Positions 2,005-27,044 of a stretch of DNA of 32,071 nucleotides are shown here, piece after piece. The first letter of the stretch is position 1; each line of letters starts with the position of its first letter. The DNA is from Candidatus Curtissbacteria bacterium RIFOXYA1_FULL_41_14. GTDB taxonomy: Bacteria; Patescibacteriota; Microgenomatia; Curtissbacterales; GWA2-41-24. The stretch lies in NCBI GenBank assembly GCA_001775095.1, contig MFCA01000021.1:1-32071 (forward strand), written 5' to 3'. The translations under genes were made by a program, and so were the position numbers. Under the pieces are notes generated by a model, which did no database searches, was not told where the DNA came from, and saw only the letters and a program-made list of their open reading frames with translations.

Positions 2005-2089
2005 CGGAGGGTAGAGGATTCGAACCTCTGTAGGCCTTACGACCCGCGGTTTTCGAAACCGCTCCGTTTGTCCACTCCGGCAACCCTCC
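2005..2089 (-). tRNA. tRNA-Ser (anticodon CGA)
   Basis: The acceptor arms GGAGGGT and ACCCTCC pair fully, and the discriminator is G. The anticodon stem GCGGT/ACCGC encloses the loop TTCGAAA, giving anticodon CGA. A long variable arm and the T-arm AGAGG-TTCGAAT-CCTCT identify a class II serine tRNA. CCA is not encoded. It reads UCG codons. Confidence 0.95.
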
Positions 2090-2114
2090 AGTTAACTCTG
2101 AATCTAGCGACGGG

Positions 2115-2188
2115 CGCGCCCAAAGGGACTCGAACCCCCAACCGCAACCTCCGCAAGGTTGTGCTCTATCCAATTGAGCTATGGGCGC
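2115..2188 (-). tRNA. tRNA-Arg (anticodon GCG)
   Basis: The acceptor arms GCGCCCA and TGGGCGC pair, with discriminator G. The anticodon stem CAACC/GGTTG holds the loop TTGCGGA, so the anticodon is GCG and reads CGC and CGU. The D-loop has the A20 expected of arginine tRNAs. CCA is not encoded. Most bacteria use ACG, deaminated to ICG, for this box, so GCG is unusual. It lies 25 bases upstream of tRNA-Ser(CGA) on the same strand. Confidence 0.9.
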
Positions 2189-2224
2189 TTATCGTCATGC
2201 AATTATATCAAGAATCAACAGTTC

Positions 2225-2251
2225 ATTTGAAATTTGAAATTGGAAATTCTA
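2225..2251. repeat. Heptamer tandem array (ATTTGAA-like)
   Basis: Units ATTTGAA, ATTTGAA and ATTGGAA, followed by a degenerate ATTCTAG, run with period 7 between tRNA-Arg and the 3' end of the PH-like gene. Confidence 0.65.
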
Positions 2252-2824
2252 GTCAAAGTTTATCCGCTTTTGAAGAGTATGGGCCCACTTATCAAAAAGG
2301 GTGTGCACCGGGCCGGTATGATAGTGCAGGTGTTTCTCAATTAAATCCAAGAGCGTCCTTTCGGAAACTTTTGTTAAAAGAATAATTAAGCGCGTTGGGA
2401 AATGAAGTTCTGTTTGCACTATCAAAAGCCGGTCATCACCTTTCCTGTCAAACCAAAAAGAATCCAGCTCCTCCCACAAAAAAGCCCGCCCGCCGGAGAT
2501 TATTCCCATATTTGTTATCTTGTGCTCAATAACTTGGGGTGCTACCGTTGCCAAAACATAGACAACAAAAACTACAGCAATAATTACACCAACCAGGAAA
2601 AACTCGCCAAAAGCAATGGCCGCCAAAACAAAAATCAGTCCGTATAGAGCAACTTTGGTGAAATACTTCCTAGACCGGCTCTTGAAAATCCGCTCCGGAG
2701 ATTTCCAGGTAATAAGTGCTTTTGCCTCAAGAGCCGCTTCATGTTTGGCATCTAATTCTTCTTTGGAAAGAATCCGGCCTGTGTGGTGATCTATATGATG
2801 AGTGCTCTTTCTGAAGTTTGGCAT
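2249..2824 (-). CDS. Membrane protein with C-terminal PH-like domain
   Basis: Starting at the ATG at 2824 (MPNFRKSTHH) gives 191 residues. The frame is open 45 bases further up, but a TATAAT lies only 9 bases before this ATG. A charged cytoplasmic N-terminus (about 1-55) precedes two hydrophobic helices (about 57-95; YFTKVALYGLIFVLAAIAFG, then a second stretch). A beta-rich C-terminal part follows (VIEHKITNMGIISGGRAFLW, ELDSFWFDRKGDDRLLIVQT), which resembles the bacterial PH-like domain of small membrane proteins. The C-terminus is histidine-rich. Its role is unknown. Such proteins are common in Patescibacteria and may sense or organise the membrane. Confidence 0.7.
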   Translation of the reverse strand: MPNFRKSTHHIDHHTGRILSKEELDAKHEAALEAKALITWKSPERIFKSRSRKYFTKVALYGLIFVLAAIAFGEFFLVGVIIAVVFVVYVLATVAPQVIEHKITNMGIISGGRAFLWEELDSFWFDRKGDDRLLIVQTELHFPTRLIILLTKVSERTLLDLIEKHLHYHTGPVHTLFDKWAHTLQKRINFD

Positions 2825-2830
2825 TACATT

Positions 2831-2858
2831 TTGATTATAGCAAAGATTCTGATAAAAT
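2831..2858 (+). promoter_or_regulatory. Promoter of the tRNA-Ser pair
   Basis: TTGATT (2831-2836), a 16-base spacer and TAAAAT (2853-2858) end 17 bases before the tRNA-Ser(GCU) 5' end. The element overlaps the divergent promoter of the PH-like gene. Confidence 0.5.
2834..2839 (-). promoter_or_regulatory. -10 element of the PH-like gene, near-leaderless
   Basis: TATAAT on the minus strand ends 9 bases before the ATG at 2824. No Shine-Dalgarno sequence fits between them, so the mRNA would have a leader of 0-3 bases. No good -35 is seen. Confidence 0.45.
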
Positions 2859-2875
2859 TTAGCTTGCAATAATCA

Positions 2876-2967
2876 GGAGGAGTCGCATAGCTGGTCCATT
2901 GCACGGGTTTGCTAAACCCGCGAGCCTCAATTGGCTCACGTGGGTTCGAATCCCACCTCCTCCGCCA
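2876..2967 (+). tRNA. tRNA-Ser (anticodon GCT)
   Basis: The acceptor arms GGAGGAG and CTCCTCC pair, with discriminator G and encoded CCA. The anticodon stem CGGGT/ACCCG with loop TTGCTAA gives GCT. A long variable arm (GAGCC...GGCTC) and the T-arm GTGGG-TTCGAAT-CCCAC make it a class II serine tRNA reading AGC and AGU. The next tRNA starts two bases after its CCA, so both are processed from one transcript. Confidence 0.95.
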
Positions 2968-2968
2968 A

Positions 2969-3055
2969 GGAGGCGTCGCATAGTGGACTAGTGCGGTCGT
3001 CTTGAAAACGACTACCGAGGAAACTCGGTCGCAGGTTCGAATCCTGCCGCCTCCG
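2969..3055 (+). tRNA. tRNA-Ser (anticodon TGA)
   Basis: The acceptor arms GGAGGCG and CGCCTCC pair, with discriminator G. The anticodon stem GTCGT/ACGAC with loop CTTGAAA gives TGA. The variable arm ACCGAG...CTCGGT and the T-arm GCAGG-TTCGAAT-CCTGC are clear. CCA is not encoded (CCC follows). Its last 16 bases plus the 5 that follow are duplicated at 3191-3211. Confidence 0.95.
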
Positions 3056-4287: not shown

Positions 4288-4504
4288 GTTTTCGAGCTTG
4301 CTGAAAACCCTCATTGTTCGAGCCCTTCGTTAAAACTCAGAACGAGAACAACATGCTTTGCATATTGTTCGAGCGTAGGAGAGTACCGTCTGATACTCTC
4401 CGTAGCGAGAACTATTAGACTTCTCACTTTGTTCGAAGAATAACAAGGCCTTGAAGCAGACTAGTTTTCAAACTTGGCTACGTGTGTAGCCGCGTTTAAC
4501 GCGG
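4288..4504. other. Hairpin-rich non-coding stretch beside tmRNA
   Basis: No gene is seen here. There are five hairpins in 217 bases: GTTTTC/GAAAAC (4288-4308); GAACAA-ATGC/GCAT-TTGTTC (4346-4370) with one internal mismatch; GGAGAGTA/TACTCTCC (4378-4401), perfect over 8 pairs; GGCTAC/GTAGCC (4476-4491); and CCGCGTT/AACGCGG (4490-4504). The motif TTGTTCGA recurs three times (about 4314, 4365, 4433). It lies immediately 3' of the tmRNA on the minus strand, so part may be its terminator or trailer. None of the hairpins has a clear T-run. A separate small RNA is possible. Confidence 0.45.
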
Positions 4505-4902
4505 TGGAGATGCCGGGTTTTGGACCCGGGTCCAAGAAAACAAAATAAAAACATCTACAAGCTTAGTCAATCTTTAATATCTCGCTTGAATCTTTAGTCG
4601 ATTGACAAACGAAATCCAAACAAAGATCAAAGTTTCGTCTCGTCCATTTGATCAATATGGACGGACAATCCCGGCTAAATTGTTGCCTTTAAAGCCTCAC
4701 CGAGAAAAGACTAAAAAGACAAGCTCATGCTTTGCTTATGCAGCAAATGCTAGAGCTGCTGGCTGTCTAACACCAAAAATGGCATCAGCCAGTTGTGCAA
4801 GTTTGTTCTTTGCACGTAAGTTTGATTCAAAGTTTACGCACTTTAGAATCGTGTTCGGCTTGCAGTTTTTAAAGTGCCATCCTGTCGAAACGATACATCC
4901 CC
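4505..4902 (-). ncRNA. ssrA: Transfer-messenger RNA (tmRNA)
   Basis: The 5' end on the minus strand reads GGGGATG, followed by the tmRNA signature TTTCGACAGG and then TGCAAGCCGAAC. The 3' end CATCTCC pairs with GGGGATG over 7 positions (one G-U), preceded by a T-arm CCGGG/CCCGG, and the discriminator is A. CCA is only partly encoded (CCG). An internal reading frame near 4813-4736 ends PAALAFAA and then TAA, the typical degradation-tag ending. If it resumes at the GCA at 4813, the tag is about 25 residues, which is on the long side. tmRNA rescues stalled ribosomes with SmpB, whose gene lies 2 kb away. The T-loop TCCAAAA departs from the usual TTCRANY at its second base. Confidence 0.9.
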
Positions 4903-18319: not shown

Positions 18320-18345
18320 CTCCCGGCTTGAAAGCTGGAGTTTTT
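18320..18345 (+). terminator. Intrinsic terminator after the lipoprotein gene
   Basis: CTCCCGGCTT folds on AAGCTGGAG (one bulged C, one G-U pair) with a GA loop, followed directly by TTTTT. It starts 3 bases after the stop codon. Confidence 0.7.
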
Positions 18346-18516
18346 CCGCTCGGAATAAAATTCTCCTCTTGATTCACCAAAACAAACAATGCTAGTCTAA
18401 TAATAGTTTGTCTTCGCGGGAAATCCGGTGTGAATCCGGAACCCTGTCGGATACCGAATGGTATTTGACAGGGTCGGGTACCGAATGGTACCTGACTGTG
18501 CCGCAACGGTAAGTAC

Positions 18517-18589
18517 CGGAAATCGGAAGCCGGAGATCGGAAATCGGACACTTGTCTGAAATCCGAAATCTGATATCTGAAATCTGGTA
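18517..18589. repeat. Two heptamer arrays inside the riboswitch
   Basis: The first array (18517-18551) has units CGGAAAT, CGGAAGC, CGGAGAT, CGGAAAT and CGGACAC. The second (18555-18589) has TCTGAAA, TCCGAAA, TCTGATA, TCTGAAA and TCTGGTA. They are partly complementary, so they can form a long imperfect peripheral arm. Confidence 0.85.
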
Positions 18590-18712
18590 ATGAGTCCGAA
18601 ATCCGCGAACAACAATCCTCCGTCGCATAAAGCTATGGAGGACAAGTCCCGAGCAGGATACCCGCCCAATAAGCGGATTCCCGTACCAAGTGGTGCAGGA
18701 TAGGAATTTAGG

Positions 18713-18738
18713 CCTTCTCGGGAACGAGGAGGTTTTTT
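18713..18738 (+). terminator. Riboswitch-controlled terminator overlapping the ribosome site
   Basis: CCTTCTCG pairs with CGAGGAGG (8 pairs, one G-U) around a GGAA tetraloop, followed by TTTTTT. The 3' arm is also the Shine-Dalgarno sequence of the gene starting at 18740 (7-base spacing). One hairpin could therefore stop both transcription and translation. Confidence 0.8.
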
Positions 18739-18739
18739 G

Positions 18740-20113
18740 ATGGCCGAACGTAGCAGCCGGTTCACAGTTGACCCTTCGACTTCGCTCAGGGCAGGTAGTT
18801 CACAGCTCACAGAAACTACAGACAATCTCGGAGGCGGGTCACTTGCCCAGGAAGTATCGCAAATCAGACAAAACTGGGCTGATCAACAAAAACCGTGGTA
18901 CCTTCTGCCGGAAACTGGTTTTAATGTCAGACTACAAATTGATCAGCTTGAGCGAGACCTAGAGCATGGCCGAAAACTTGGGGAAACAACAGAGGAAATA
19001 CTTCAAGAAAGCTTCCAGAAAATAGAGCAGGATATCCAAGGCTTTAAAGTCGAATACCTCTGTGAAGGACTGGTATTACCTATCGTACTAGATACAGATG
19101 TAGTTGACGGACAAAAACGGGTAATTGCGCCCCTGTATAATTCCAAGCTGCTAGTTGAAACAGTTTCAGAACAGGAAAGACGAGGTGCAGTTAAACAGTC
19201 TTTAATCCAAGTTGAGGATTTTCTTCTTAATGCCCCACCAGGTTCTAGCGCCATTATGACCAGCCCGCCTGGTCCAAGCGGTTTTGAGGGTATCACTTAT
19301 TTGGATTCCCAAACTTACATCTGGCAAATCCAAGAAGGCGGTAAGCCCCGCGGTTTCACAATAAGAACAAACATGAACCTTGAAGAAAATCAGAGATTGC
19401 TTATTTCTCTTGGCATTGACGAGAAAAATCTTGGCGCAGATTCACTGGAGGATAAGTTAACAAGAATTGCTGTAAATCCCGTCTTTATCCGGCATGATCC
19501 AGGACAAAAAAGTTGGCGGGTAGAGGATGTCGTTAAAATAATTAGATATGTAAGAGGGTCAGATATCGCTTACAAGGGCAGGTCATTTGCAGAAATTTAT
19601 CAAAATTTAGAAAATCCCCAACATCTTTGGACTCTTGATGAAACTACAAAAAGACTGACGGACCAGCTAAAAACATTCTTTTTAGAACAGATGGCAAGCG
19701 GTCGTTATGTAAGACGGGATTTAGAAATAGCTTTAGGAATTACAATTCTTAAACTTGCAAGATCAATAAGAAAGCCTTTAATAGATTCTGGTCAAGTCTT
19801 CGACCGTGAGGCTCAGACCGAATCGGCCAGAATGACAATAAGCAGTACTGATGTGACTCCAACCGCGGATTATAAAGCAATACTGTTTCAGGTCCAGCAG
19901 CTGCCTGGTTGTAACGGAGGCGGAACAACTAATAATCACGAAGGCTATATCTTTACAGGAACAATCTCTCCCCGCCATGCTGAAATCTCAACCTCAGGAG
20001 AAAAAACCCTGAATTGTATATGTCCATTCTGTAAAAACCGAGTCAATGCAATCATCTCCAATAACACAATAACCTGCCCCATATGTAATAGTTCGGCACC
20101 ATATCACTGCTAA
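18740..20113 (+). CDS. Orphan zinc-ribbon protein under cobalamin control
   Basis: The protein has 457 residues from the ATG at 18740, placed 7 bases after GAGGAGG. Residues 10-20 (TVDPSTSLRAG) are a translated dispersed repeat. The body is soluble and mixed alpha/beta with no recognised fold; it contains RLQIDQLERDLEHGRKLGET and a region GSSAIMTSPPGPSGFEGITY, then IWQIQEGGKPRGFTIRTNMN. A C-terminal zinc ribbon has C-x-C-x2-C (CICPFC) and C-x2-C (CPIC), ending HC, preceded by LPGCNGGGTTNNHEGYIF. No B12 transport, synthesis or B12-dependent enzyme motif is seen. The riboswitch implies a B12-linked role, such as replacing or handling a B12-dependent function. It lies inside the secretion cluster but is probably a separate unit. 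Confidence 0.75.
   Translation: MAERSSRFTVDPSTSLRAGSSQLTETTDNLGGGSLAQEVSQIRQNWADQQKPWYLLPETGFNVRLQIDQLERDLEHGRKLGETTEEILQESFQKIEQDIQGFKVEYLCEGLVLPIVLDTDVVDGQKRVIAPLYNSKLLVETVSEQERRGAVKQSLIQVEDFLLNAPPGSSAIMTSPPGPSGFEGITYLDSQTYIWQIQEGGKPRGFTIRTNMNLEENQRLLISLGIDEKNLGADSLEDKLTRIAVNPVFIRHDPGQKSWRVEDVVKIIRYVRGSDIAYKGRSFAEIYQNLENPQHLWTLDETTKRLTDQLKTFFLEQMASGRYVRRDLEIALGITILKLARSIRKPLIDSGQVFDREAQTESARMTISSTDVTPTADYKAILFQVQQLPGCNGGGTTNNHEGYIFTGTISPRHAEISTSGEKTLNCICPFCKNRVNAIISNNTITCPICNSSAPYHC
18771..18791. repeat. Dispersed CCCTTCGAC...CTCAGGG repeat inside a gene
   Basis: CCCTTCGACTTCGCTCAGGG is an imperfect palindrome of the family at 3061-3190 and 14875-14946. It is read in frame as DPSTSLRA near the N-terminus of the zinc-ribbon protein. 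Confidence 0.6.
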
Positions 20114-25775: not shown

Positions 25776-27044
25776 ATGATTATTTTCGAATCCACATTCC
25801 CAACTGACTACCGCCGGAGGGAAATCAAACAAATATTAGACTATCTAATAACTGGTAAATTCTGCCAAATTGTCTCTATCTCTGGCGCCGGAAAAGCCAC
25901 AGTTTTGCGGCTTCTTGCCCATAACCGCAATTTACTAAAGTTCCATCTGGGAGAAAAAGAAAAGCCAATTCGAATTCTGGACTTAAATTTGCTTGAACTT
26001 ATAAACTATGATCAGGAACAACTCGCCAAGTTTTTGCTTCTGGCACTTGAGGAAAAAGTACCAAATACCCACGATTATTTGGTTCTGACAAAACAGTTAA
26101 ACGAAGCTGTTGCCAAACTTGCCCTTTCCAAACAAACCTTGATTTTTCTCTTTGATCATTTTGACGAATATCAAAACCGTCTTTCTCGGTCATTCTTTCA
26201 ACTTTTAAGAAGCCTTAGAAGTATTGCCAAATATAAATTTGCGACTGCCTTTGCAACCAGGAGAGATTTGATAGAACTTGTTGATCCTGAGATTTTGAAA
26301 GATTTCTATGATTTTTTCATCGGCAATACTATTTATCTAAAGATCTACGATGAATCTGCCACCCATTTCCTCTTCTCCCAAATTGAGGGGGTTTTTGAAA
26401 AAAAGCTTTCCCAGGCAGATAAAAAAAACATCATAGCCGTCAGCGGCGGTCATATCAAACTTACCAAAATTTTAGCAGAAGCTACTCTTCGAGAAGACAT
26501 TGCTCTCAAAAAAGAAACCCTTCTGGCAACACCAATTGTAGCGGCTACCCTCTTTGAGATTTGGCTCGCCTTAACCGCCCAAGAACAACAAGCCCTCCGA
26601 TCAATTGCCCAAAATAAAGAACCAGCTAAAGATGCCTTGGAAAATCTTATCAAGTTCGACTTGCTAAAAGGAACCGAACAATTTAGTTTCACTATCCCAT
26701 TGTTCAAAGAATTTGTGCTTGCGACAATCCCTACTCTTATACAAGAAAAACTTACATTTAATCAGGACACTAAAGAGATAATGAAAGGGTCAAATGTCAT
26801 CTCTGATTTACTTTCTCCTGCGGAATATCGTCTGTTGCGATTTTTAATTGCCAATCAAGGCCGCATTATCCAGCGTGATGAAATCGTCAAAGCTGTCTGG
26901 CCGGACGCTCAAGTCGTTGCGGGTATCAGTGATGAAGCAATTGACCAACTGGTTTACCGCTTACGCAAAAAAACTGAGGATGATCCTAATAACCCTCAAT
27001 ACACACAAACAGTGAAGGGGCAGGGTTTCCGCTTCCAGCCATAA
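25776..27044 (+). CDS. NTPase with C-terminal OmpR-type winged helix
   Basis: The protein has 422 residues. The N-terminal part (about 1-250) is an AAA/STAND-like NTPase. The P-loop region reads SISGAGKATVLR (34-45), where the usual first Gly is Ser and the Ser/Thr after Lys is Ala. Walker B is LIFLFDHFDE (122-131). A helical segment leads to an OmpR/PhoB-type winged helix (about 340-422): LLSPAEYRLLRFLIANQGRI, QRDEIVKAVW, IDQLVYRLRKKTEDDPNNPQ and TVKGQGFRFQP. Such proteins are ATP-dependent transcription regulators. It may control the adjacent secretion genes. The start is 5 bases after the right octamer array, which therefore lies in its leader. Confidence 0.85.
   Translation: MIIFESTFPTDYRRREIKQILDYLITGKFCQIVSISGAGKATVLRLLAHNRNLLKFHLGEKEKPIRILDLNLLELINYDQEQLAKFLLLALEEKVPNTHDYLVLTKQLNEAVAKLALSKQTLIFLFDHFDEYQNRLSRSFFQLLRSLRSIAKYKFATAFATRRDLIELVDPEILKDFYDFFIGNTIYLKIYDESATHFLFSQIEGVFEKKLSQADKKNIIAVSGGHIKLTKILAEATLREDIALKKETLLATPIVAATLFEIWLALTAQEQQALRSIAQNKEPAKDALENLIKFDLLKGTEQFSFTIPLFKEFVLATIPTLIQEKLTFNQDTKEIMKGSNVISDLLSPAEYRLLRFLIANQGRIIQRDEIVKAVWPDAQVVAGISDEAIDQLVYRLRKKTEDDPNNPQYTQTVKGQGFRFQP

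Follow-up and report, generated by a model that had tools for sequence, protein, structure and literature searches.

What does a leader that looks like a cobalamin riboswitch do in front of a gene that resembles no known vitamin B12 gene? The question is raised by a contig of Candidatus Curtissbacteria bacterium RIFOXYA1_FULL_41_14 (Patescibacteriota, Microgenomatia; assembly GCA_001775095.1, contig MFCA01000021.1; all 32,071 nucleotides were analysed and are referred to as the window), where a leader at 18404-18740 precedes the gene for a zinc-ribbon protein of a superfamily that we call ZR. Patescibacteria are believed to depend on other cells for their living, and little is known of their cofactor supply and gene regulation. 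We conclude that the leader is very probably an OFF-type riboswitch of the cobalamin clan, controlling ZR as a B12-limitation gene repressed by adenosylcobalamin (AdoCbl). By computation, the leader has the architecture of such a riboswitch and is homologous to it, and its pairing with ZR and with a module of AdoCbl and ribonucleotide reductase (RNR) is conserved. ZR is the most common target of this riboswitch in the Microgenomatia.

An initial annotation, made from the window sequence, had reported a riboswitch core, a B12-box-like segment and a terminator that masks the Shine-Dalgarno (SD) sequence, and all of these were found at 18418-18738. It had also named a search with the Rfam cobalamin model as a check, which the window copy failed in its strict form. 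Rfam reported no cobalamin element in the window at the gathering threshold, and a relaxed scan gave 10.1 bits against RF00174 (E = 3.4, cut-off 31.5), a low score that stems from the insertion of short palindromic repeats in the aptamer. Orthologous leaders, in which the element is compact, scored above the Rfam cut-offs in eight genomes, passing that of AdoCbl-II in three (49.7, 47.4 and 41.4 bits) and that of Cobalamin in five (35.8-46.8 bits). After these leaders were examined, dismissal of the element over its sub-threshold score was rejected. Judged by its sequence, the window element is classed as a derived version of a cobalamin-clan member, not as a canonical Rfam member.

A covariance model (R1) was built from the cores of 19 relatives, with the window sequence excluded. 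R1 found the window copy at 24.0 bits (E = 1.6e-6) in a search of the window, and as the sole match in its genome in a genome-wide search (E = 6e-5). Among the 139 relatives sampled from the Microgenomatia, 109 had R1 matches, nearly always one per genome. The 19-sequence core alignment has 21 invariant columns, and RNAalifold recovered P4 and P6 from it unaided. In the named structure, 93.1% of cells were paired versus 72.3% after shuffling, double changes occurred in 52 cells versus 14.5, and the covariation score was 0.558 versus 0.136; the shuffle test is inflated by sequence kinship. Controls with slid partners, which are unaffected by kinship, lowered pairing to 31-43%. A literature search made largely without subscription journals and without preprints turned up no previous description of cobalamin riboswitches in Patescibacteria, the Candidate Phyla Radiation, Parcubacteria or Microgenomates.

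The window element has the conserved L4, L5 and B12 box together with P3/P4/P6 pairing. Its minimum free energy (MFE) fold (18404-18739, -147.6 kcal/mol) comprises P1/P3, P4, two extra hairpins, a long P6 and the terminator. The R1 alignment placed an alternative B12 box at 18525-18540; on sequence grounds we prefer GAGTCCGAAATCC at 18592 as the likely box, since in the MFE fold it closes both P3/P1 and P6, and it corresponds to the box of G005, a second genome of the family. A conserved CCGAGCAGGA lies 3' of the aptamer, where the kissing partner of L5 (L5-L13) was sought. Removing the insert at 18443..18496 restores the canonical CCGGAAC-TGTGCCGC junction. The P6 stretch (18514-18591) recurs in G005 with 85% identity, and several insert segments (18443-18591) have further copies elsewhere in the window genome. 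The element resembles clan CL00101 (RF00174 Cobalamin, RF01689 AdoCbl-II and RF01482 AdoCbl) in its P3-P4-P5-P6 core, L4 GTG..AA.TC, L5 GCCGC, B12 box AGTCnGAAnACC and OFF-type terminator platform, whereas the sub-cut-off score, the repeats at the P4/P5 junction and in P6, and the orphan target set it apart.

The expression platform places the SD sequence GAGGAGG (18726-18732) in the terminator 3' arm, and the six T of the terminator are followed by one base and then the ATG at 18740. The terminator 5' arm contains CTCGGGA (18717-18723), which can alternatively pair with TCCCGAG (18647-18653) and thereby break the terminator, making TCCCGAG a putative antiterminator strand. Both the terminator and this mutually exclusive fold exist for 18640-18739, at -34.8 kcal/mol and, with the antiterminator enforced, at -31.1 kcal/mol. 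CCGAGC follows the core within 200 nucleotides at 57 of 100 riboswitch loci, compared with 2 of 100 in the upstream control. A terminator that carries the SD sequence in its stem directly before the start codon is a design common to 19 riboswitch loci. In several relatives, TCCCGAGCAGGA itself carries the SD sequence directly before the ATG, an arrangement that on sequence grounds suggests a variant of the switch acting on translation. From the platform anatomy and from known cobalamin riboswitches we infer that the direction is OFF and that AdoCbl, or a related cobalamin, represses the gene. Bound AdoCbl would close P1/P3 and let the terminator form with the SD sequence in its 3' arm, silencing the gene; with no ligand, TCCCGAG would pair with CTCGGGA, the terminator would be broken and ZR would be made. 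ZR would thus be turned on under AdoCbl scarcity, in bacteria whose DNA synthesis needs the AdoCbl-dependent NrdJ.

The initial annotation had described the target as an orphan gene and proposed that genes downstream of the riboswitch be listed in relatives. The DNA around 100 riboswitches of the Microgenomatia was taken and the first gene was classified: 62 led to ZR and 6 to PduO followed by ZR (68 together), 14 to DUF4430, 1 to CobQ (recognised by inspection) and 17 to other genes or none. The target is an orphan in that it received no family assignment, but it is no isolated curiosity. Roughly half of the genomes sampled showed the pairing of switch and ZR. The ZR profile was iterated on riboswitch-proximal genes, and circularity was tested three ways. 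Among 689 open frames in the loci, the profile matched 8 non-proximal ones, six of which are the genes after PduO, and it matched 0 of 1240 shuffled sequences. In the reverse direction, 33 of 37 ZR genes found in relatives by protein profile alone had a same-strand upstream riboswitch, and two of the four that did not sit at contig ends. Beyond the Microgenomatia, most copies of the riboswitch stand before DUF4430 genes that come with membrane partners, and ZR has at least three clear members (G632, G512 and G539) and a few weaker ones. At one locus (L185, genome G102), the riboswitch is followed by a CobQ-like cobyric acid synthase and a ZR member lies ~2.4 kb downstream.

The link to B12 suggested by the initial annotation is real: across the class, the riboswitch is associated with PduO and NrdJ. 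Genes for PduO, a B12 adenosyltransferase, and for the class II RNR NrdJ are present in the window genome; no DUF4430 or DUF6580 was found in it. NrdJ and the riboswitch co-occur (99/15 versus 10/15, Fisher p = 3e-6, a value that is optimistic since the genomes are related). In 80 genomes with both PduO and the riboswitch, the latter lies just 3' of PduO in 37 and upstream of it in 6. Four genomes (G099, G058, G032 and G108) have an intact nrdR-nrdJ-pduO order with the riboswitch and a ZR gene (NCBIfam-confirmed for examples), and in the same slot G031 has nrdJ-cobO-riboswitch-DUF4430-DUF6580. Transcobalamins contain a DUF4430 domain (PMC4350170), and the G031 slot would therefore serve B12 capture. 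ZR under the switch and DUF4430 anywhere in the genome are negatively associated (14/67 versus 16/27, p = 5e-4); strict mutual exclusion was rejected, the association being significant yet incomplete. The sampled Microgenomatia, which are ultra-small bacteria, have a strong need for B12, with AdoCbl-dependent NrdJ supplying DNA building blocks, and seem to obtain the vitamin from other organisms.

Described cobalamin regulons cover B12 biosynthesis, B12 and cobalt transport, and B12-independent isozymes (PMC3766115). Elsewhere in the phylum the element fits this picture, controlling DUF4430 B12-binder-like proteins, a DUF6580/ECF-like membrane protein and CobQ, whereas ZR fits no category by sequence. 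Similarly, ZR and the riboswitch often lie inside an nrdR-nrdJ-pduO cluster, as in operons of NrdJ with PduO-type ATP:cob(I)alamin adenosyltransferase, but ZR is neither adenosyltransferase nor reductase by any family search. A disguised fragment of PduO, CobO or NrdJ was dropped for want of similarity.

The claim that the target falls outside the known B12 families held up: the window protein matched nothing in Pfam or NCBIfam above cut-off and, by these searches, is not a recognised transporter or synthesis enzyme for B12 or a B12-independent isozyme, and Foldseek with the full protein and with the core gave no PDB match at E<=0.001. A Foldseek search of a viral library likewise found nothing, and a PDB sequence-profile search returned zinc ribbons only. 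The zinc-ribbon label is reasonable. Across 77 ZR sequences, C428, C431, C446, C449 and C457 are conserved, as are E105 (99%), S175-P176, C391 (84%, a Cys in a Gly-rich loop) and E421. The superfamily is very divergent, usually with a C-terminal zinc ribbon and an E...SPPG core; the window protein has E105, S-P at 175-176, the Gly-rich Cys loop, CxxC...CxxC and the upstream riboswitch. Generic C-terminal zinc ribbons (eL43 and Zn_ribbon_3) share the CxxC...CxxC but resemble only the last ~35 residues, leaving ~400 others without assignment. The AlphaFold2 model is usable (pLDDT 70.9 for the whole protein and 80.7 for the core) and predicts the core order helix, two to three strands, helix, three strands, helix, and scattered weak PAS, GAF, Cache and longin matches give a hint, no more, of a profilin/PAS-like topology. 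A narrower protein alignment had found five named relatives, in Curtissbacteria, Levybacteria, Roizmanbacteria and Gottesmanbacteria (Microgenomatia, Patescibacteria).

Components of a type IV secretion system (T4SS) lie beside 27 of 68 ZR loci in two different arrangements. T4SS pilins, PrgI and a VirB4/TraG ATPase are encoded in the cluster of the window. The initial annotation had placed the gene inside a secretion cluster and suggested that the switch perhaps senses host or community supply, a reading that is conjectural.

Several observations weigh against an AdoCbl-repressed switch whose target acts with this apparatus. The window aptamer scores far under the Rfam cut-off and has two insertions that may impair it; the TCCCGAG:CTCGGGA pairing competes with a second predicted fold, the terminator, which in isolation is the more stable by ~4 kcal/mol; the window protein has no match for its predicted fold; and a VirD4-like gene also lies near 8 of 32 non-ZR riboswitch loci, so that the T4SS linkage may partly be inherited gene order. 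The insertions, one of them between P4 and P5, and the 10.1 bits would also suit a decayed riboswitch left non-functional by repeat insertion. We consider such decay improbable, since the inserts fold as self-contained hairpins, the MFE structure retains P1/P3, P4 and P6, the core nucleotides, B12 box, terminator and SD sequence are intact, and the P6 repeat is also present in G005. A cobalamin-like RNA with another ligand is hardly to be expected at all: the lineage-specific features would allow it, cobalamin binding being predicted, but the core is conserved at Rfam level and the element is associated with PduO, CobO, NrdJ, CobQ and transcobalamin-like DUF4430 genes. A cobalamin-clan riboswitch is what the Rfam-passing ortholog leaders and the R1 match argue for.

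For ZR itself, our leading guess, a tentative one, is that it helps B12 acquisition in concert with the T4SS. It is rather doubtful that ZR is instead an intracellular B12-handling factor (in cob(III/II)alamin processing, or as a reductase partner or chaperone) feeding PduO and NrdJ at low AdoCbl. PduO neighbours ZR in 31 of 68 loci and NrdJ in 25 of 68, C391 in its Gly-rich loop is followed by a Cys-rich ribbon, and the window protein has no obvious signal peptide or membrane segment. Yet no flavin, corrinoid-binding or reductase family was matched, the window's own family has ZR apart from PduO and NrdJ and inside the T4SS cluster, and a cofactor chaperone would rarely diverge so very strongly. 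Acquisition could also be cast more widely, with ZR as a phylum-spanning system of B12 acquisition or B12 starvation, exported by or acting on the T4SS, by which an episymbiont would obtain cobalamin from its host or surroundings or offset failed AdoCbl-dependent ribonucleotide reduction, and which would replace DUF4430/ECF-like uptake in the same riboswitch slot; this we regard as unlikely. The odds are poorer still for a stress regulator, such as a zinc-ribbon brake on nucleic acids or ribosomes that would slow growth or replication when AdoCbl, and hence deoxynucleotide synthesis, fails. Its C-terminal ribbons do resemble those of the ribosomal protein eL43 (PDB sequence search, best E = 8.5e-4), and of the AdoCbl users found, class II RNR is the principal one, but that resemblance covers a short, generic stretch, nothing matched the core domain, and the association with the T4SS would be left unexplained.

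The presence of a one-per-genome B12 riboswitch tied to a B12-dependent RNR makes cobalamin a sensed resource for these bacteria, and the ZR family offers a short, testable list of candidates for coping with B12 limitation. An inducible expression tool is said to be lacking for Patescibacteria (PMC11665869); the conserved switch is a natural candidate for one in this group.

Table 1. Features of the riboswitch leader and its target gene in the window
Feature	Coordinates	Strand	Basis or remark
Terminator-like hairpin of the preceding redoxin-like gene, then TTTTT	18323..18338	+	consensus match only; shuffles average 0.7
P1/P3 5' strand (TTGT.TTCGCGG)	18408..18419	+	paired with 18603-18613 in MFE fold
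Core segment GGGAAATCCGGTGTGAATCCGGAAC	18418-18442		
P4 hairpin, L4 loop GTGTGAATC	18424..18440	+	MFE fold; P4 covariation in 19 relatives
Two adjacent hairpins inserted exactly between P4 and P5	18443..18496	+	fold; part recurs elsewhere in genome
Core segment CTGTGCCGCAACGGTAAG	18496-18513		
P5/L5 and P6 start, TGTGCCGCAACGGTAAG	18497..18513	+	near-invariant in relatives' alignment A3
Enlarged P6 hairpin of interspersed CGGAAATCGGA/TCCGAAATCCGA repeat	18514..18591	+	MFE fold
B12-box-like J6/3, P3 and P1 3' strand, GAGTCCGAAATCCGCGAACAAC	18592..18613	+	matches relatives' AGTCnGAAnACC; closes P3/P1
TCCCGAG, candidate antiterminator 5' strand, within conserved TCCCGAGCAGGA	18647..18653	+	
Intrinsic terminator CCTTCTCG-GGAA-CGAGGAGG-TTTTTT	18713..18738	+	-14.1 kcal/mol
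Gene for 457-aa riboswitch-controlled zinc-ribbon protein (ZR superfamily)	18740..20113	+	
ZR core domain, residues 84-223, near-invariant E105, R147, S175-P176 (SPPG)	18989..19408	+	77 sequences; AlphaFold2
C-terminal zinc ribbon, C428/C431/C446/C449/C457	20021..20110	+	

The hairpin at 18323..18338 divides the riboswitch transcript from the upstream genes. The palindromic repeats inside the aptamer (CGGAAATCGGA...TCCGAAATCCGA and GTCGGGTACCGAATGGTACCTGAC) have copies in contigs C10, C20, C27 and C28 of the window genome (G000), and relatives of these repeats are spread over the family, some close to or within other genes. An interpretation of the leader as a mere repeat cluster was dropped; the core does not depend on the repeats, and relatives conserve it without them.

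DUF4430 (transcobalamin-like) together with a DUF6580/ECF-like membrane protein stands under a B12 riboswitch at L097, L100, L118, L122, L210, L227 and similar loci, and the pair is a candidate B12 uptake system of Patescibacteria; L122 additionally has a prenyltransferase-toroid protein reminiscent of transcobalamin. In ten genomes (G032, G035, G052, G053, G054, G092, G102, G104, G112 and G136), the NrdJ reading frame is split around profile position 282 by long in-frame inserts that are probably inteins. In other classes, the riboswitch controls low-complexity proteins of about 390-860 aa (L206, L207, L212, L213, L214, L229 and L232), most of which end in a degron-like ...AA, with a ClpC/ClpB-like AAA+ gene directly downstream. 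Within the window, the T4SS cluster includes an AAA/STAND-like protein with a C-terminal OmpR-type DNA-binding domain (25776-27041), which is kept beside the cluster in relatives. Near the window start lie a tmRNA (4502-4902, minus strand) and a cluster of four tRNA genes (2005-3055).
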